Source: an uncultured Ruminococcus sp. (lineage in GTDB: Bacteria; Bacillota; Clostridia; Oscillospirales; Ruminococcaceae). From it: a DNA stretch of 64,000 nt. Position numbers and translations under genes: made by a program. The DNA lies in the NCBI GenBank assembly GCA_947627175.1, contig CANQVA010000003.1:62001-126000 (forward strand), read 5' to 3'. Positions 37,389 to 46,192 of the stretch are shown piece by piece. The notes under the pieces are model-generated. The model had not been told where the DNA came from and ran no database searches. It worked only from the letters and a program-made list of their open reading frames with translations. Each line of letters begins with the position of its first letter. Position 1 is the first letter of the stretch.

Positions 37389-38693
37389 TCAATATCCGAG
37401 GTCTTTCATACGCTTTTTAAAATCGGCATTAACTTTTGCCATTTTTTTCTTGTCACGTGCTTGCTTTTTGATATCACTAACAGAAACACTTGTGCTTTCT
37501 TCTTTTGCAACGGGAGTAACAGGCATATCATCGTTCATGAATTTATTCAGACGCTGTCTGAATCTTGACTTTCCCTCACCTGAAAGCGGTACAGAATTAA
37601 GAGGCTGTGAAACAGTTGCACTGTTCTGATAATGACTTGAAACAGGTGAAACAGGCTGATGCGGGTATACATTCTGAAGAGGTTGACTGTTTAACGGCTG
37701 TTGATAATATGGGTTTGAATTTGTGGGAAAACTTCCCTGATTTACAGACTGATTATATCCCTGCATATTATTCGGATACTGTCCGGGCTGTACAAACTGG
37801 GGATTCATATTGTTCTGCTGAGGATATCCCTGCGGATAACCCTGCTGAGGATATGGATATCCCTGCGGCTGCTGCGAATAGTCCTGCTGCTGTGGATAAC
37901 CCGGCTGTTGCGGATATCCTTGATTATTCTGTTGGGGATAACCCGATTGCTGAGGATATCCTTGATTATTCTGTTGAGGATAACCCGGTTGCGGATAGCC
38001 TTGTTGCTGTGGATAACCCTGCTGAGGATACGGCTGAACAAACTGTCCGTTCATATTCTGCTGTACGCCGTTGAACTGCATAGAATTATTCTGTTCATTC
38101 ATATTTTCAACCGGCGGTTCGTTCTGGTCGGCAAGAGTCGGCACGGGTGCAGCCGGCGTGTCGTCAAAATCAAACCCGAATTTTTCTTCAAAACTCAAAT
38201 TTTCGCTTACAGGTTCAGGTGAAAAAGCAGGAACTGATTCCGAAACAGAGCTTTCCTGAATTTCATCGGAAACTTCTGTATTATTGGAAACTTCCGTATT
38301 ATCGGAAACTGTTTCTATTTCGCAAGCCTTTACTGAACTTTCAGTTGAAATGGCAACTTCACACTGAGAATTTTTTTCGTCTGCCTTACAAAGTACATCA
38401 ATGCATTCTTTACAAGGACGGCATACACTTCCATCTGCAAAAGAAACTGTCATCATCTGCTTTACATCAATATGACCGTCAATAAACATTGACATAAAAG
38501 CATTGTATTCCGAACAAGCCTTTTCAACTTTATCATTTGTGATTCTTATTCCCGTTACACCTGCATAAACTTCATCATTGCCGTTTACTACAACGCAAAG
38601 TGAAGCGTTCACGTCGTCAGCAATATGAGGACTGAACTTTTTGACTTCTTCAACAAGCATTACCGCCTTGTTATATAATTCAATCAATTCCAC
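37389..38693 (-). CDS. cytidine deaminase-like zinc domain with a PQQGY-rich disordered tail
   Basis: Residues 1-120 resemble the cytidine deaminase fold. SLCVVVNGNDEVYAGVTGIRI matches the strands before the active site, KACSEYNAFMSMFIDG matches the CAERTALFKAV motif (Cys zinc ligand and catalytic Glu), and VCRPCKECIDVL supplies the PCxxC ligands. The spacing from the first Cys to the PC Cys is 34, close to the 33 of Bacillus Cdd. So all zinc and proton-shuttle residues are present. After an acidic Ser/Glu/Val linker (about 125-200) comes about 130 residues of repeated GYPQQ-like units, then a basic C-terminal helix (RFRQRLNKFM, KKQARDKKKMAKVNADFKKRM). The domain call is mine from motif reading; the substrate could be a nucleoside, a base in RNA, or nothing if the fold is structural. 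It has its own promoter. Confidence 0.62.
   Translation of the reverse strand: MELIELYNKAVMLVEEVKKFSPHIADDVNASLCVVVNGNDEVYAGVTGIRITNDKVEKACSEYNAFMSMFIDGHIDVKQMMTVSFADGSVCRPCKECIDVLCKADEKNSQCEVAISTESSVKACEIETVSDNTEVSNNTEVSDEIQESSVSESVPAFSPEPVSENLSFEEKFGFDFDDTPAAPVPTLADQNEPPVENMNEQNNSMQFNGVQQNMNGQFVQPYPQQGYPQQQGYPQPGYPQQNNQGYPQQSGYPQQNNQGYPQQPGYPQQQDYSQQPQGYPYPQQGYPQGYPQQNNMNPQFVQPGQYPNNMQGYNQSVNQGSFPTNSNPYYQQPLNSQPLQNVYPHQPVSPVSSHYQNSATVSQPLNSVPLSGEGKSRFRQRLNKFMNDDMPVTPVAKEESTSVSVSDIKKQARDKKKMAKVNADFKKRMKDLGY
37800..38045 (-). repeat. imperfect tandem repeats coding for GYPQQ units
   Basis: Short units such as GGATATCCTCAGCAG-like strings recur with variation and encode QQGYPQ, PGYPQQNNQGYPQQ and related runs. 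It is coding low-complexity sequence and expected to be unfolded. Confidence 0.85.
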
Positions 38694-38824: not shown

Positions 38825-38862
38825 GAGAAAAAAATTTCACGTTCCGTAAAGAAACGTGAAAT
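38825..38862 (-). terminator. intrinsic terminator of the TerY-P operon
   Basis: The 10-bp stem ATTTCACGTT / AACGTGAAAT with a T7 run on the minus strand lies 68 nt after the PP2C stop. Confidence 0.8.
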
Positions 38863-38929: not shown

Positions 38930-39895
38930 TCATGTTTCATACTCTTCTGATTCATAAAGTGCGTTGTTCATTGAATTTTTCAGTTTTTGTTTTTGCATTC
39001 TTGCCTTTTGTTCAGCCTTACGCATAGAGGCATGAATTTTATTTACTTCAACTTGTTCTTTAAGTTCTTCCTGTTTTTCAGGCAGATAATCTTTATCAAA
39101 CACACAAGCAAGCGAAGTATCGTCCTGTGTTCCACATTTAGCCCTTTTTGAAAGATTTTTCCTTATAGACGGACTGAACGCTTCTATATTTATAAGCTGA
39201 CTGGCAAGTATACTGTGATAGTCAAGAAAATCTTCATCACTTTTAAACGATGTATAAAGACCATCAGTTGAAACAAAAACAGCTATCGGCTTTTCGTCAA
39301 GCGTATAGAAACTGTTGAAGTATTTTATAGCCTGACTATTGCACATAGATGCAGTAAGATTTGCGGGAGCTGATTCTTCATAGGCAATAGGCATTTCGGC
39401 GGCTGCGTCCTCACATATAAGTACAAGACTGCCATCGCCTATCTGTGTGCCGAAAGTAAATTTTCTTCCCATAACTGCAACTATAAGAGTAGTGCCGTAA
39501 ACAGTTTCAACTTTAAGCCGTTTAAATTCCTTTTCGGTAAAAGGTTCTTTTTCTTTGTCGGTATATGGATTATGGGTATAATGATGTATTACAAGTCTGT
39601 TCCAGCGTGAAATAATATTCTTCTCCATTTTTTTTATCAGACTTTCGGGGTCATTCAGAAAACTTTCCTCAAAGGCATCAGGGTCTTTGTAAAATTCCTC
39701 AACCGTATCGAGTGCTGCCATTACAGCCATTTCAGAGCCTTTGTCACTTCTGAAATGATTCTTGCTTCCATGACCGTCCGCAACAACGGCAATTCCGTAA
39801 TTGTCATACGCTTTGAAAACTGATGAATCCTGACATACCGTTCCGCTTGTTATATGACTTGCCCCGATAACCGTATGGCAAAAACCATTTAACAT
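38930..39895 (-). CDS. PP2C-type protein phosphatase (TerY-P triad)
   Basis: This is a metal-dependent Ser/Thr phosphatase. VVADGHGS at residues 38-45 is motif 2 with the metal-binding Asp, the N-terminal CQDSS supplies an earlier acidic residue, VSTDGLYTSF is the motif 8 Asp, and GTQDDTSLACVFD the last metal Asp. A charged, probably coiled-coil tail follows (EQKARMQKQKLKN). It is the last gene of a four-gene operon with a VWA protein and a kinase, so it most likely reverses that kinase's phosphorylation. The operon terminator lies downstream. Confidence 0.9.
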   Translation of the reverse strand: MLNGFCHTVIGASHITSGTVCQDSSVFKAYDNYGIAVVADGHGSKNHFRSDKGSEMAVMAALDTVEEFYKDPDAFEESFLNDPESLIKKMEKNIISRWNRLVIHHYTHNPYTDKEKEPFTEKEFKRLKVETVYGTTLIVAVMGRKFTFGTQIGDGSLVLICEDAAAEMPIAYEESAPANLTASMCNSQAIKYFNSFYTLDEKPIAVFVSTDGLYTSFKSDEDFLDYHSILASQLINIEAFSPSIRKNLSKRAKCGTQDDTSLACVFDKDYLPEKQEELKEQVEVNKIHASMRKAEQKARMQKQKLKNSMNNALYESEEYET

Positions 39896-39929
39896 TTATA
39901 AGCACCCCTTTCGGTAATAAATAGTCAGA

Positions 39930-40763
39930 TTACCAGCCTGTATCGAAAGGAACAGTATCCGAATAATCCTGTGATTTGACGAGTTCCTGAATTTGCTGAC
40001 CGAGCATTTTCTGTTTAGCGGCGTAAACGTCTTTAGAACTGAGTTCATGGTTTGTATCGTCTGAAAGCGTCATACTCTTACTACCGATTTGTGAAGAAGT
40101 AACAGCGATAATTTTAATCATCTGTGCAAGTTGTCCGCCCGAATAAGCATGAACAACAGTATCCTTTGTTCCGGTAAATTCAGCAAGCATATCATCGTTT
40201 GCTTCTTTACCGATACCGAGTGCAGCTTTAAGACCGAATTTATACCAGCTGTTTTTCTGAAGTACTTCAAGTCCTGCCTTGTAATCGTCTGAAGGGTATC
40301 CGTCTGTCATAAGGAAAATAACAGGTGCAAATGACAGTGACGGAGAACTGAGGAAACTATTTCTTGACATTCTTATTGAAAGTTCCCTGAAAGCCTCTCC
40401 CATACTTGTAACGCCGTCTGCCCTTAGACGTGTCCATTCAAATTCCTCAATTGAAACAGGTTCGGAATACATCCACATTACACTGTTAGCAAAAGTAAGA
40501 ACAGCAACTTTAACGTCAGTATCGGCTTCACCTACACGGCGAATTTCAGGAATAAGTTCTTCCATAACGGTATTAAGTTCGCCCATTTTAGTTCCCTTCA
40601 TACTTCCTGATGTATCTATGAGGAAAAATATTACAAGGCTTTTTTTCGACACGCTTGTTGCACTAAGCGGGTCATCGTCGTCAAAGTCAAGCAAATTGTC
40701 GAAATCTTCGTCCATATTGCCTGCTGTTTTTAATTCATCGTTATTATTCATGTCTTTGCTCAT
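39930..40763 (-). CDS. VWA domain protein, TerY-like
   Basis: The von Willebrand A domain has a complete MIDAS: FFLIDTSGSMKG, the Thr in RADGVTSMGEAFREL, and LMTDGYPSDD. About 45 acidic residues precede it and a 60-residue tail follows. The fold and size fit TerY, the VWA protein of tellurite-type stress systems, which is often encoded with a PP2C phosphatase and a kinase (the TerY-P triad). It probably forms the platform or substrate of the pair. The start at 40763 (MSKDMNNN) is ten bases after GGGAG; the track start is earlier and unsupported. Confidence 0.87.
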   Translation of the reverse strand: MSKDMNNNDELKTAGNMDEDFDNLLDFDDDDPLSATSVSKKSLVIFFLIDTSGSMKGTKMGELNTVMEELIPEIRRVGEADTDVKVAVLTFANSVMWMYSEPVSIEEFEWTRLRADGVTSMGEAFRELSIRMSRNSFLSSPSLSFAPVIFLMTDGYPSDDYKAGLEVLQKNSWYKFGLKAALGIGKEANDDMLAEFTGTKDTVVHAYSGGQLAQMIKIIAVTSSQIGSKSMTLSDDTNHELSSKDVYAAKQKMLGQQIQELVKSQDYSDTVPFDTGW

Positions 40764-40829
40764 AATTTGCATACTCCCTTTCATATTGATTGACACCTGA
40801 AATTATATAGCGTCAACATCGTTTACGGC

Positions 40830-42173
40830 TTAAACGTGTGCATTTACTCCTCCGAAGTCTATTTCAAGACCTTTCCAAAGAGGGAATCCCTTTCCGGGAG
40901 CTATATCATAGAAAATACCATCGGGCATTTTTACACGCCATACTTTTTCTGAACTGTTCTTTATTCCGAGCATACCCGGCTTTAGTTTGTTTTCAACAAG
41001 TTCGCCTGCAACTTTTCGGAAATCATCTGACTTAGGGTCTATTTCACATTCATAAAATCTGCTTCCCACATAAAGCGGTATACGATAATCACGGTTACTG
41101 AAAGCAAGACTTGCATATTCCGCACCGCATTTCGGGCATCTGTATGAAGTTTCATTTACTTTTTCAAACATTGATGTAAAATTCGTTCTTCCGCACGTAC
41201 AAACAATAATTTCAGAACGCAGTCTTATAAAGAGTTTCTGCCATTCGTTTTCGATAATACGCTTGTTAGGTTCTCTTATACCCGTTGTGAAAGAACGTAT
41301 AAATGCCTCACGTACATATGATGGATATATTCTCCAGAATTTTATTACATTATCATGAATACCCCTTACAGGACGATTTGAAGTGTCGTCAGGGTCATAA
41401 ACGAAAACTGCCTGCTGTCCGTAATGTTTAAGTTCAGATGTTTCTGTAAGACATACATCTTTTACAACTTTTTCGCCCTCCATAGGGTCTCCTCTGAAAA
41501 GGAGTTTGAAAAGAACGACTGCAAGTGAATATTTATCTGTCTGAACGTTTGGTTTTGCAATACCTCTTACGACTTCAGGAGCCATATATCCCGGTTTACC
41601 GCCTATTCCGAAATTGCTTCCGTCAGGAGCGATATTATCACAGTCACAAACGAGAATATCACCCGTATTTACATTGATAAAGAAACCGCCGTCATTCAAA
41701 TCCTGATAACTCTTTCCTGCTCTGTGGAGCTGTCTGAAAGCGTTTACAATATTTATTACAGCTGTAACCATTGCATAAAGGCTTGAAAACTGAACTGAAA
41801 CTTTTGTTGCACGTCCTGTAAGGTCGTCAATATCAAGTCTATATGTATTGAGAATGTCAACAAAAGAATCATAACCCTGCGGTCTCAAATCCATTATGTA
41901 ACCGAAAGTTCCCGCACTGTTTTCCTTTGTGAGATACTTAGGCCAAAGAAATTTTTCACTTGGTGCACCGTCTTTTATATTGTTTGCAATATTCTTACGG
42001 AAAGCCTTTGCGTTTTTTATCTTGTCAATATCATACCATTTCAAAGCATAATCTATACCGTTAAAATCAACGAGATAAACAATACCCTGTCCGCCGCTGC
42101 CGAGTATTTTCTTTACAGTTGCAGAACCGCCGTATTCCATTTCAATCTGTTCGCCGATTTTAAGTTCTACCAT
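40830..42173 (-). CDS. Ser/Thr protein kinase with C-terminal zinc ribbon (TerY-P triad)
   Basis: The kinase domain spans about residues 10-310. ILGSGGQGIVYLV is the Gly-rich loop, YALKWYD holds the ATP-binding Lys, SYQDLNDGGFFIN stands for the HRDLKPxN catalytic loop with Asp and Asn kept, LVCDCDNI replaces DFG with the metal Asp kept, and GYMAPEV is the P+1 region. A zinc ribbon follows (CTCGRTNFTSMF, YRCPKCGAEY), then about 80 residues of beta-rich sequence. This kinase plus zinc ribbon layout is that of the kinases in TerY-P triads. No membrane segment is present, so it is cytosolic. The nearby phosphatase and VWA genes support the call. Confidence 0.87.
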   Translation of the reverse strand: MVELKIGEQIEMEYGGSATVKKILGSGGQGIVYLVDFNGIDYALKWYDIDKIKNAKAFRKNIANNIKDGAPSEKFLWPKYLTKENSAGTFGYIMDLRPQGYDSFVDILNTYRLDIDDLTGRATKVSVQFSSLYAMVTAVINIVNAFRQLHRAGKSYQDLNDGGFFINVNTGDILVCDCDNIAPDGSNFGIGGKPGYMAPEVVRGIAKPNVQTDKYSLAVVLFKLLFRGDPMEGEKVVKDVCLTETSELKHYGQQAVFVYDPDDTSNRPVRGIHDNVIKFWRIYPSYVREAFIRSFTTGIREPNKRIIENEWQKLFIRLRSEIIVCTCGRTNFTSMFEKVNETSYRCPKCGAEYASLAFSNRDYRIPLYVGSRFYECEIDPKSDDFRKVAGELVENKLKPGMLGIKNSSEKVWRVKMPDGIFYDIAPGKGFPLWKGLEIDFGGVNAHV

Positions 42174-42219
42174 TTAATATCATTCCCTTCTGAATTTAAT
42201 TTTATTTGATTTTTATTTA

Positions 42220-43287
42220 TTATTTGCCAAAAGGAGTTCCCTTGGCAACCGTTTCAACTTCAATGCCGTTGTCAAGACAATAGCGGTGAACATATGAATT
42301 TTCATAACAATGTACTGTAAGAGAAGTACAATATGAAAATGCACCCTCTTCTATAAACTTTACATTTTCTGAAAGATTTAATTTGCGTAGCTTTTCACAG
42401 CCTGAAAACGCTCCCGCACCTATACTGCTTACAGTTGACGGAACGTCTATTATTTCAAGGCTATGACAGAATGAAAAAGTATTATCTTCAATTTGAAGTA
42501 CACCTTCCGGAATTTTTACCATAGTCAGCTTTCCACACTGGCTGAATGCACCTTGTTTAAGTATTTTCAGAGATTCAGGCAATTCAATGCCTTTAAGTCT
42601 TTTACATTCAGAAAAAGCATATTCACCTATTGTAACAAGAGTTGAAGGCAATTCAATTGTTTTCATAAAACCGAAACCGTCAAAAGCAAAACTGTCAAGT
42701 TTTGTATATCCCTCCGGAATTTTAACAGCACCTTTAAGTCTGTATTTTGCTGCGTCCGCAGGTCTGAAAACTTTCATATTCAGTTCAAACGGCACAGGCG
42801 GTTTTCCTTTATTTTTTTCGGCTGAATCCGCATTTGATGTTTTTTCCGTTTCCGCATCTGTTTTCTTAACTTCTGTCAGTTTTGAAACGTACTCCCAGCC
42901 AAGCATATATGTAAAACAAACTATTACAAATTCAGCCGCATTTTCTGAAAGAAACATTTCTGAAACCATAAATTCCTTTGCTTTCATAATTGCTATTTTC
43001 TGCTGTTCACTTTCTCTGAGCATATTTGAAAGTACTCCGGCTTGAAGCATATTTTTAAGAAGTCGGCGTTCTTTTTCGTACTCGGGAATAAAGTCATTGA
43101 GCAATGAAATAAACTTATTTGTATCCTGCTTAATGTCATCTCCATATTGTTCCATCATTGATTTCAAGGCACGTTTTATTTCAATAGTATTTTCAAATCC
43201 GGCAACATTACGTTGAACAGGAGTTCCGCATTTCAGGCACACTTCTGCGGTAGGGCTAAGTTCGTTTCGGCATCTCTCACATAGCAT
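42220..43287 (-). CDS. zinc ribbon plus BspA-type leucine-rich repeat protein
   Basis: The protein begins MLCERCRNELSPTAEVCLKCG, a compact four-Cys zinc ribbon right at the N-terminus. A helical region of about 130 residues follows, then a Lys/Glu linker, then five to six BspA-like LRR_5 units from about 190 to 335 (KIPEGYTKLDSFAFDG, ELPSTLVTIGEYAFSECKRL, PESLKILKQGAFSQCGKL and so on). BspA repeats are usually on surface proteins, but this one has no signal peptide and so stays in the cytosol. It is the first gene of the TerY-P operon, 46 nt ahead of the kinase, and may be the sensor or a scaffold. The start is fixed by the zinc ribbon, though its ribosome site is weak. Confidence 0.82.
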   Translation of the reverse strand: MLCERCRNELSPTAEVCLKCGTPVQRNVAGFENTIEIKRALKSMMEQYGDDIKQDTNKFISLLNDFIPEYEKERRLLKNMLQAGVLSNMLRESEQQKIAIMKAKEFMVSEMFLSENAAEFVIVCFTYMLGWEYVSKLTEVKKTDAETEKTSNADSAEKNKGKPPVPFELNMKVFRPADAAKYRLKGAVKIPEGYTKLDSFAFDGFGFMKTIELPSTLVTIGEYAFSECKRLKGIELPESLKILKQGAFSQCGKLTMVKIPEGVLQIEDNTFSFCHSLEIIDVPSTVSSIGAGAFSGCEKLRKLNLSENVKFIEEGAFSYCTSLTVHCYENSYVHRYCLDNGIEVETVAKGTPFGK

Positions 43288-43344
43288 AGTAAATTCTGCT
43301 ACTCAAAATATGGACTAATATTATATATCCATATGAGAAAATTC

Positions 43345-43394
43345 CCGTACAGCCTACGGTATATTTACAGATACATTTTATATATACTGTAAAT
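43345..43394 (-). other. two inverted repeats in the leader of the TerY-P operon
   Basis: CCGTA-N5-TACGG (43345-43359) and ATTTACAG-N16-CTGTAAAT (43363-43394) lie between the likely promoter and the first gene. Together they could fold the 5' leader. I could not match them to a known riboswitch. Confidence 0.4.
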
Positions 43395-43418
43395 TTCTCA
43401 GGTAGCTTTCTCCTTTCG

Positions 43419-43447
43419 TTTATAATTATATTTTAATTTTTTGTCAA
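43419..43447 (-). promoter_or_regulatory. probable promoter of the TerY-P operon
   Basis: On the minus strand TTGACA, 17 bp, TATAAA, about 130 nt before the first gene. Confidence 0.6.
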
Positions 43448-43846
43448 TTACCATTGGCAAAATGGTTTTATTCAACTGTCGAAATATATGTTTTATAATT
43501 CGGACAATCTGTTAATATTTTTATCTGTATTTATTTTTATTCAATAATTTAATCTTATAATATATCTTTAATTTAATATAAACCCACAATAAACTCATTC
43601 TATATTACAATATCGTCCATTATTGAAGTATATCATGTATTTATAAAAAAGTCAAGAGATAATATAAATTTTACTCATTTTTTTTATATTTCTCACAAAA
43701 AAAATGCCTGAAGTCTATGCACTTCATAGAGAAGAAGTAAATATTTTAGTATTTCCAACAAATGTTGATATATTATCAATGTCTTACAAAAATCAAAAAT
43801 TATACAGATGTTACAATTATTTATTAAAAATTCAGCAATTTTCGCC
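43448..43846. other. AT-rich intergenic stretch without visible genes
   Basis: Nothing but AT-rich sequence was seen between the two divergent promoters, apart from a short inverted repeat CTATG-N5-CATAG near 43713. No ORF has a convincing ribosome site. Confidence 0.5.
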
Positions 43847-43946: not shown

Positions 43947-44981
43947 ATGAAAAAAAATACACGGAAAATTCTGAGTGCTATAACACTCGGAGCATTAACA
44001 ATGTCATTTGCTTTTACAGGAGGCTGTGGAAAAAAAGATGATGAAACATATGTTGCAGTAATCGTCAAAAGCCAAAGCCAATACTGGGCAACTGCAAAAA
44101 AAGGCGTTGAAGATGCAGGAAATGAAATGGACATCAAGGTAACATATGACGCAGGAGAAAAAGAAGATGTTGCAGTACAGCTTGATTATGTAAACAATGC
44201 AATTAAAAATAATGCAGATGCCATTGTTATCGCCCCCGTAGAAGATACGGACGAACTTGCTAAAGCTCTTGAAAATGCACGTCTTAACAACATTCCTGTT
44301 ATTACGATTGATACGGAAATGAGAGAAGAAGCTCGTGATTCATGCATAAGTACAAACAATTCATATGCAGGAGCTATTGCGGCACGTAAAGCCTATGAAA
44401 TGCTCGGCGGTAAAGGAAATGTCGGAATAATAACACAACAGCCAAATTCTCCGCTTGCTATACAAAGAGGAGGCGGTTTTGAAGAACAAGTTCAGGAATA
44501 TCAGAACGCTTCAGGAGCAGATGCAGCAGATGACGGCGAAAACACATCATCAGAATTTAATATAGTTGCAAAGGAAAGCGGTGAAGGCGACCTTCAACTT
44601 ACAATGGAAGCAACAGAAAAACTTTTAGACGAACACCCCGAAGTTAATTTTATTTTTACGACAAGTCAGACAGCAACAAGAGGTGTATGCCGTGTTATAG
44701 ATGAAAAAGGTTTAGCTGATTCAGTTGATATTATCGGTTTTGACAACTTCGACGCAAAAGACGATTGCAAGAGTTCAGACGAATATATGGAAAGCGGTGT
44801 ACTTGACGGATTTATTTTACAGAATCCTTATGCTATGGCTTATCTCAGTGTAAGATATGCAAGAAATCTTGTAGATGGTGAAAGCATAGCTTCCGCAATT
44901 GATACCGGTGCTACTCTTGTTACAAAGGACAATATAAATGACAGCGATATACAGCTTATCATGTACCCGGACAAATATTAA
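43947..44981 (+). CDS. sugar-type substrate-binding lipoprotein (Peripla_BP_4 family)
   Basis: After a signal peptide ending in FTGGCGKKD, with Cys for lipid anchoring, the protein shows the two-lobed sugar-binding fold related to ribose- and galactose-binding proteins: TYVAVIVKSQSQYWATAKKGVEDAGNEM, NADAIVIAPVEDTDEL, NIPVITIDTEM, NVGIITQQPNSPLAIQRGGGFEEQ and DIIGFDNFD. No ABC permease or ATPase gene follows. Instead a membrane GGDEF protein gene begins 14 nt downstream, so this protein may act as a ligand sensor on the cell surface rather than in transport. The ligand is unknown; a sugar or sugar-like molecule is likely by family. Confidence 0.85.
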   Translation: MKKNTRKILSAITLGALTMSFAFTGGCGKKDDETYVAVIVKSQSQYWATAKKGVEDAGNEMDIKVTYDAGEKEDVAVQLDYVNNAIKNNADAIVIAPVEDTDELAKALENARLNNIPVITIDTEMREEARDSCISTNNSYAGAIAARKAYEMLGGKGNVGIITQQPNSPLAIQRGGGFEEQVQEYQNASGADAADDGENTSSEFNIVAKESGEGDLQLTMEATEKLLDEHPEVNFIFTTSQTATRGVCRVIDEKGLADSVDIIGFDNFDAKDDCKSSDEYMESGVLDGFILQNPYAMAYLSVRYARNLVDGESIASAIDTGATLVTKDNINDSDIQLIMYPDKY

Positions 44982-44995
44982 CGGAGGACTAAAAA

Positions 44996-46192
44996 ATGAC
45001 TACTAATAACAATTATTCAAGAAGTAAAAGAAATTTTACAATAACTGCAATAATGCTGTTCGTGATTATGGCTATAAATATGGCGAACAGTACTATCGTA
45101 TTTCTTAACGGTCGAAGAATATATGACCAAAATATGGACTCATTCCAACGAATGTCAACAATATCCGAGCAGGTTCTCAGTGTAAACAGAGAAGTTCTCA
45201 TGATTGTATCAGGTGCAGGAAATCCTATGTCAAATGTAGGTAATATTCACAACTCTTTCGATATTATCAGGGCTAATATGGCGGAATACGAAAAAATTGA
45301 CCATTCAGACATGGAAAAAAGAAGATATAATCACGCTAAAACCCTTGTTGAATCGTATGACAACAAACTGCTTTCTCTTGAAAATTCTTTCTCAAGTCTT
45401 AACAGTGAACAAATGAAAGATATTTATCTTCAGGAAATTCACCCAACACAGACAGCCGCCGTTGAAATGCTTATGGCTACACTTGAAATAGGAAAAAACG
45501 ACGCTGAAAAAAGAACAAGTTCAAGTTCAGTTCTTTTCGGTGCAGGATTTATTTTCCTTGTAGTTGTACTTATATTAGGTGAAATAATCATTGCATCACT
45601 TGCAAAGTCAACAAAGAGAAGAATGTTACAGCTTGAAATGCAGGAACGTCAGATTGCAGCAGCAGGACGTAAACTTGAAAGTTCAAACAAGAAGATGTAC
45701 GATATAGCACTTACAAACATTCTTACAGGAATGAAAAACCGTTACGCACTTGAAAATGACCTTGCCGACAGACTTGAAACAGACCAATTTAATATAGGCG
45801 TTTTTGATGTTGACAATTTCCGTCTGATTAACGATACATACGGTTATGAGTTCGGCGACGAATTTCTTGCCGCTCTCGGTGAAACACTCCTTGAAGAATT
45901 TAAAGATGTTGCTACTATCTACAATATAACAAGTAATGAATTTTGCTTTGTATTCAACGATGATGTGCCCGACAGTCAGATACAGAGAATTGCCGACAGA
46001 ATACGTGCGGCAATGTCAAGCCCTGTTACAATTGAGAGTATAATGGTTCAGTGTACGGCATCAGGAAGTATTTATCACTATTTGCCAAATGACAGTCTGA
46101 ATGTAAGTTCACTGCTTATCAAAATGGACACAGTTATGCACAATGTAAAGAGAAACGGCGGAAATGCCGTTTACGTCGTAAACAGTCTTTAA
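44996..46192 (+). CDS. membrane sensor with degenerate GGDEF domain
   Basis: Two membrane helices (about residues 14-36 and 177-200) flank a 140-residue helical extracellular domain resembling four-helix-bundle sensors. A short coiled coil then leads to a GGDEF domain (about 235-398): LTNILTGMKNRYALENDL, VFDVDNFRLINDTYGYEFGDEFL and the C-terminal half are all recognisable. The signature RxGGDEF is replaced by NITSNEFCFVF, so both glycines and the Asp are lost. The domain is therefore probably not a cyclase but may bind GTP or a partner. The gene lies 14 nt after the sugar-binding lipoprotein, which likely supplies the ligand signal. GGAGG precedes the ATG. Confidence 0.85.
   Translation: MTTNNNYSRSKRNFTITAIMLFVIMAINMANSTIVFLNGRRIYDQNMDSFQRMSTISEQVLSVNREVLMIVSGAGNPMSNVGNIHNSFDIIRANMAEYEKIDHSDMEKRRYNHAKTLVESYDNKLLSLENSFSSLNSEQMKDIYLQEIHPTQTAAVEMLMATLEIGKNDAEKRTSSSSVLFGAGFIFLVVVLILGEIIIASLAKSTKRRMLQLEMQERQIAAAGRKLESSNKKMYDIALTNILTGMKNRYALENDLADRLETDQFNIGVFDVDNFRLINDTYGYEFGDEFLAALGETLLEEFKDVATIYNITSNEFCFVFNDDVPDSQIQRIADRIRAAMSSPVTIESIMVQCTASGSIYHYLPNDSLNVSSLLIKMDTVMHNVKRNGGNAVYVVNSL

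Follow-up and report, generated by a model that had tools for sequence, protein, structure and literature searches.

A four-gene operon on the minus strand of a 64,000-nucleotide stretch of DNA from an uncultured Ruminococcus sp. (the window: contig CANQVA010000003.1, positions 62,001 to 126,000) encodes, in order, a leucine-rich repeat (LRR) protein, a protein kinase, a von Willebrand factor A (VWA) protein and a PP2C phosphatase, and is read here, with a probability of about one half, as a chromosomal switch of rumen Ruminococcus that stands alone and works by Ser/Thr phosphorylation. It would belong to a ter-independent, TerY-P-like branch in which exchangeable recognition modules, in this case the LRR, are attached through a helical adaptor domain to a core made up of the kinase, the VWA protein and PP2C. 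The observations behind this reading are the gene order, the domain content, the independence from TerD and TerC, the recurrence of the helical domain and an altered loop in the kinase. TerY-P triads have so far been placed with tellurite or metal stress or with phage defence, and to our knowledge neither the input nor the target of such a triad is known. A triad of this kind consists of a TerY-like VWA protein, a PP2C and a Ser/Thr kinase with a C-terminal zinc ribbon (Anantharaman et al. 2012, as summarised in PMC11090510). What gives the present case its wider interest is that the triad persists in genomes without TerD and TerC, and that a small, recurrent helical domain makes the question of what the TerY-P core recognises a testable one.

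The four open reading frames, which are tightly spaced, were confirmed where a first-pass annotation of the window, made from the sequence alone, had placed them. They lie on contig C3 of a 2.6 Mb Ruminococcus genome whose named relatives include R. flavefaciens and R. albus (contigs of this host, loci and other genomes are cited as C, L and G numbers). The annotation had described a TerY-P-like triad with a zinc ribbon-LRR protein at its head, a description that is borne out by the gene order, by the ribbon cysteines and by the Pfam matches (E-values of 6.2e-36 for LRR_5, 1.8e-10 for Pkinase, 9.4e-9 for VWA and 1.5e-31 for PP2C_2). A phosphorylation switch fits such an operon because the metal ion-dependent adhesion site (MIDAS) of the VWA protein and the PP2C site are intact and the kinase keeps its ATP site. 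The MIDAS elements are present in almost every relative (DTSGS in 68/69, the T in 69/69 and the D in 69/69), the PP2C motifs DGH, GDG, DG and DD are invariant in 70/70 homologues, and within the group of the window kinase the ATP-binding Lys45 is invariant, together with Asp158 and Asp177, the equivalents of the HRD and DFG aspartates.

Central to the argument is the conservation of the gene order, a survey of which the first-pass annotation had proposed. Among 80 named Ruminococcus loci, retrieved by the kinase alone and counted only where the contig permits the test, the LRR gene is found upstream of the kinase in 77/77, whilst downstream the VWA gene is found in 75/75 and the PP2C gene in 71/74. 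An orthologous kinase is present in 57 of a set of 72 genomes of the genus, and at 56 of the 60 kinase loci of this set the LRR gene is immediately upstream, the four loci without an adjacent LRR gene belonging to three genomes that have either a second kinase locus or the LRR gene on another contig. The four proteins have pairwise distances that correlate at 0.61-0.89, a level that none of 500 permutations reached. The four proteins thus evolve together, and on these comparisons of sequence the four-gene unit is not a chance grouping.

Across the genus the identity of the kinase runs parallel to that of dihydroorotase (PyrC), with kinase/PyrC values of, for example, 94/91, 94/88, 92/87, 91/85 and 82/84%. 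The operon is vertically inherited, with a kinase about as conserved as the housekeeping PyrC. The operon occurs in cultured R. albus and R. flavefaciens. In the wider sampling the kinase profile finds only two further genomes among 291 of the class and, over 399 genomes of the phylum, two matches of full length and three partial ones, and no relative of the VWA protein was found in the other genomes of the same order within the sample. The kinase search also returns matches on enterobacterial plasmids. A literature search that combined Ruminococcus with TerY gave no matching paper, the survey of Anantharaman et al. 2012 lying outside that search. Within the genus, one subclade (L091, L092, L106 and L152) has an LRR-kinase-VWA operon from which PP2C is gone and in which the VWA protein has diverged (~64%), and the second locus of the same subclade (L147, L148) encodes a pseudokinase, a VWA protein and a PP2C, an arrangement that has the appearance of partner exchange.

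How far, then, does the operon depend on ter genes? None lies inside it, as the first-pass annotation had noted; beyond the view of that annotation, six TerD genes are spread over three other loci of the host genome. On C28 three of them accompany TelA and a YceG-domain protein, on C6 two accompany a Ca-ATPase, and the last is on C1, near a second kinase-PP2C pair that is 56% and 50% identical to the kinase and PP2C of the window. No TerD was found anywhere in 33 of the 57 operon carriers, 12 of these 33 being at least 97% complete, and no genome in the genus sample has TerC; the operon is therefore independent of both. Neither an LRR gene that goes its own way nor a triad that relies on ter genes elsewhere, the two outcomes that the annotation had named as telling against it, was found. 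TerD is present in 24/57 carriers and in 2/15 non-carriers, which is a weak association (Fisher p = 0.07). TerY_C (PF15616) has 0 matches in the host genome; alongside the related triads of L051 and of a Prevotella plasmid, and by similarity alongside those of L144 and L145, TerY_C is encoded as a protein of its own. The assignment to TerY-P consequently stands for the three proteins and lapses for TerY_C and the linkage to ter, and with an altered kinase active site the operon is not a complete textbook TerY-P. As a separate observation on the ter loci, the module kinase-VWA-PP2C-LRR lies between FeoB and TerD in a sister species (L051, 4805-14416), whereas on C6 of the host genome (L008, 9448-13451) FeoB directly adjoins TerD-TerD-Ca-ATPase, so the module has been lost or gained as a block.

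Of the LRR protein, the part that stays constant beyond Ruminococcus is the helical domain. The AlphaFold2 model of this protein has a mean predicted local distance difference test score (pLDDT) of 84.9, with the helices at residues 34-129 scoring ~90, and its LRR part structurally matches TpLRR, the best match, and BspA-type structures. No Pfam or NCBIfam model covers the helical domain, and no structural relative of it was found, the fold search with the model of the LRR protein returning LRR proteins. A profile of the domain built from the LRR proteins does, though, find homologues in related triads. At all six loci outside Ruminococcus that were found by kinase similarity alone (L144, L145, L161, L162, L168 and L169, from G370, G368, G431, G694, one Prevotella plasmid and one Methylomonas plasmid, and hence from other Clostridia, Prevotella and Methylomonas) the gene run of the triad includes one or more helical-domain genes, the Prevotella match being the weakest of the six (1.3e-5). 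By contrast, the domain is absent from the three true ter operons (L170-L172) that came from the same phylum search. The parts fused to it comprise Sel1, FGE-sulfatase, Tim44-like, Clp_N, ClpX zinc finger and DUF4190 and, in Ruminococcus, LRR, Sel1 or MORN.

The zinc ribbon is a less constant companion. In the LRR protein of the window the N-terminal ribbon falls below the Pfam threshold (Zn_Ribbon_1, 8.7e-4), its four cysteines are present in 69/78 relatives, the other nine having gaps there, and several of the helical-domain homologues have no ribbon at all. The proposal in the first-pass annotation, that shared zinc ribbons bring the kinase and the LRR protein to the same partner, is therefore weak, because the ribbon is optional and it is the helical domain that the homologous partners share. 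A single helical domain is likely to be the docking part that lets one core take many inputs, with the LRR adaptor showing how the module may be coupled to new ones. A broader and more tentative view, for which the odds fall a little short of even, is that the domain marks an undescribed, largely ter-independent TerY-P branch over several phyla, with one kinase-VWA-PP2C core and interchangeable adaptor-borne modules (LRR, Sel1, MORN, FGE, Clp_N and ClpX finger), and that in Ruminococcus this branch has become a near-core housekeeping switch with a non-canonical kinase active site and, as its output, a degenerate deaminase with a disordered tail. The adaptor rule is based on 6/6 triads versus 0/3 ter operons. 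On the Methylomonas plasmid (L162, 10882-15418) five tandem helical-domain genes follow the triad, fused to Sel1, Tim44-like, Clp_N and ClpX-type zinc finger parts, which makes a link to Clp proteolysis possible, and a Ruminococcus locus (L056, 306-5368) has three tandem ribbon-helical genes with MORN repeats and no kinase in the 8 kb retrieved.

The kinase itself is confidently modelled by AlphaFold2 (mean pLDDT 91.9, predicted template modelling score 0.91), and a fold search of the PDB with the whole model lists only kinases. The ribbon cysteines 325, 327, 346 and 349 are invariant in 79/79 sequences, and the model predicts a C-terminal all-beta domain that has no sequence match to any fold in the PDB or Pfam. 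Paralogues of this kinase have lost further residues: L009 lacks the HRD aspartate, and L147, L148 and L150 lack those of both HRD and DFG. All four adjoin a PP2C gene, and L147, L148 and L150 a VWA gene as well, so these are apparently pseudokinase versions of the unit, a series which suggests that catalysis was lost stepwise while the complex was retained.

Table 1. Features of the operon and its surroundings (window coordinates)
Feature	Position	Strand	Details
Zinc ribbon-helical-LRR protein	42220..43287	-	355 aa; ribbon aa 1-25, helical adaptor domain 34-129, disordered linker 141-169, BspA-type LRR ~176-350
Kinase	40830..42173	-	447 aa; eukaryotic-type kinase domain aa 17-235, zinc ribbon 325-349, C-terminal all-beta domain 364-446 (predicted); Gly163 for catalytic-loop Asn
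Stand-alone VWA protein	39930..40796	-	MIDAS intact; acidic N-terminal motif DFDDDDPLxAT conserved; probable start ATG 40763 (277 aa)
PP2C phosphatase	38930..39895	-	321 aa; every metal-ligand motif intact
Operon promoter	43627..43655	-	TTGACT-17-TATACT, extended -10; consensus scan and conservation in aligned close relatives; 340 nt upstream of LRR gene
Intrinsic terminator, just 3' of PP2C	38834..38862	-	12-pair stem and T run
Deaminase-like neighbour	37389..38693	-	Degenerate cytidine-deaminase-like domain ~aa 1-125; Q/P/G/Y-rich disordered tail; basic C-terminus
RbsB-type solute-binding lipoprotein, divergent	43947..44981	+	Peripla_BP_4 2.1e-47
Membrane protein, divergent	44996..46192	+	4HB_MCP-like sensor and degenerate GGDEF domain (SNEF/GNEF), GGDEF 4.2e-21

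Relatives carry in-frame stop codons shortly upstream of the VWA gene, which makes the ATG a more likely start of the VWA protein than the GTG at 40796. In the window the LRR gene has a leader (43290-43620, minus strand) that exceeds that of close relatives by ~200 nt, and the Shine-Dalgarno sequence reads AGCAGA in place of their AGGAGG. Pieces of the extra leader sequence recur on C12, C25 and C18 of the host genome; this extra sequence is possibly a small repeat and could reduce translation of the LRR gene in the window strain. Rfam, searched with the locus for riboswitches and other RNAs, gave chance-level matches only.

Conserved neighbours, which had been overlooked in the first-pass annotation, flank the operon on both sides (Table 1). 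The deaminase-like gene is found downstream in 59/60 loci. PF00383 matches 16 of 20 members of its family (best 9.4e-9), and a PDB search with the domain gave one weak match, to a cytidine deaminase (E 0.48), so that the assignment rests on the Pfam model; the deaminase residues are retained in some species and lost in others. On the divergent side, the degenerate NEF-type signature is found in 39/42 relatives of the membrane GGDEF-type protein, which is likely to be a receptor or scaffold rather than a cyclase. In many relatives a further GGDEF protein, whose signature is often intact, is encoded between PP2C and the deaminase-like gene. These neighbours suggest a nutrient-linked or cyclic di-GMP (c-di-GMP)-linked setting, and an LRR adaptor fits the recognition of a target or a signal.

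In the switch as it is proposed here, the LRR would recognise an intracellular protein, and the helical domain, aided by the ribbon, would dock the LRR protein onto the kinase/VWA complex. Between them, kinase and PP2C would then determine how far the VWA protein is phosphorylated, perhaps at its conserved acidic-flanked Thr/Ser, or else how far the recognised protein is. The neighbouring deaminase-like protein, with its disordered tail, may receive the output, and to judge from the divergent solute-binding protein and the degenerate GGDEF sensor the input may be a sugar or nutrient outside the cytoplasm.

A number of points weigh against this scheme. Every interaction, substrate and signal in it is inferred. 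The operon is dispensable, since ~15 of the 72 genus genomes, several of them nearly complete, have no kinase. The pairing of kinase and helical domain is not universal, because four Ruminococcus paralogue loci (L054, L057, L058 and L153) have no helical-domain match nearby; nor is the helical-domain branch strictly ter-free, because in the sister species (L051) a ribbon-helical-LRR protein ends an operon of Ca-ATPase-TerD-TerD-kinase-VWA-PP2C. On the side of the neighbours, the deaminase-like gene of the window genome has its own promoter (38806-38778, a perfect consensus of 12/12) behind the PP2C terminator, and the divergent pair of lipoprotein and degenerate GGDEF protein is found in 44/58 loci only. 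Finally, Gly163 takes the place of the Mg-binding catalytic-loop Asn in 79/79 sequences of the kinase, so phosphotransfer may be weak or absent; this Asn is kept in most related kinases of other groups (L051, L052, L054, L057 and L058, for instance), with L145 also having Gly.

The altered loop leads directly to another explanation, in which the kinase is a pseudokinase and the operon a scaffold gated by nucleotide or metal; PP2C would act on the phosphoproteins of another kinase, and the LRR adaptor would pick the client. The uniform loss of an Asn that the other groups keep would agree with this, as would the paralogues that have shed their catalytic aspartates and still accompany PP2C, but Lys45, Asp158 and Asp177 are invariant and an intact PP2C fits a working kinase/phosphatase pair, such that a pure scaffold is rather unlikely. 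The neighbours could be given more weight than they have in the switch: the lipoprotein and the GGDEF proteins would be the real input to a nutrient or surface-attachment circuit, and the kinase unit, acting by way of the deaminase-like protein, would control adhesion or the degradation of fibre. The divergent pair and the second, often signature-intact GGDEF protein are in keeping with such a circuit, and the distances of the neighbouring genes correlate with those of the kinase (r 0.66-0.90). Against this, R. albus-type loci have no divergent pair, the locus has no c-di-GMP riboswitch or other RNA family in Rfam, and co-location is by itself no proof of function; this version is judged unlikely.

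The first-pass annotation had also put forward, as a possibility, a stand-alone stress or defence unit, of which the stand-alone part holds and the defence part is disfavoured. As an anti-phage system the operon would resemble the TerY-P of Gao et al. 2020, which has a kinase fused to an OB-fold; the window kinase has its predicted C-terminal beta domain, of unassigned fold, in this place. The literature describes TerY-P-like triads both as defence systems that stand alone and within CoCoNuT systems (PMC7699616, PMC11090510); moreover, relatives on the Prevotella plasmid lie near genes for ADP-ribosylglycohydrolase, exonuclease and FtsK. Yet PADLOC has no match for the VWA protein or PP2C and generic ones only for the kinase, no relative was found in viral contigs, weak kinases appear only in two phage records, and a unit that is carried by most of the genus, passed on vertically and as conserved as PyrC does not behave as an arms-race gene. 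Because of the vertical inheritance stand-alone signalling is favoured over phage defence, which is very unlikely here. A further alternative is that the operon serves the Ter stress response as its phosphorylation arm, working in trans on TerD proteins whose genes lie elsewhere in the genome. This view could call upon the six TerD genes at three loci of the host, one of them near the paralogous kinase-PP2C pair, upon the related triad with its ribbon-helical-LRR protein inside the Ca-ATPase-TerD-TerD operon of the sister species, and upon the somewhat higher frequency of TerD in carriers, but it is largely refuted by the many carriers that have no TerD, near-complete genomes among them, and by a genus sample without TerC.

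The stand-alone switch may finally be set beside systems that are already described. The ter operons of Bacillota (Ca-ATPase, TerD, kinase, PP2C, VWA, TelA and YceG; L170-L172) have the same enzyme classes side by side, but their kinases, of ~470-495 aa, are 27-29% identical over part of the chain, TerD is present and the helical partner is absent. In actinobacterial sets linked to GAP1-N2 GTPases a kinase with a zinc ribbon and a beta-rich domain is found with PP2C and a stand-alone vWA protein (PMC7159879); by description, which is the only level of the comparison, the kinase architecture and the three genes are the same, whereas the Ruminococcus locus has no GTPase-centred system and has the LRR adaptor in its place. 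The effector-associated domains (EADs) of bacterial conflict systems, described in the same paper (PMC7159879), are alike in use, as small helical domains fused to interchangeable modules, FGE included, although no Pfam EAD model matches the helical-domain proteins and the core proteins showed no homotypic copies. With the TerY-P triad the Ruminococcus set shares the same three proteins in one operon, a ribbon kinase, a stand-alone VWA protein with an intact MIDAS and an intact PP2C. It differs in that there is no TerY_C in the genome, TerD is not needed and the catalytic-loop Asn is lost, and in that the Ruminococcus operon adds a ribbon-helical-LRR partner and a conserved deaminase-like neighbour to the triad.

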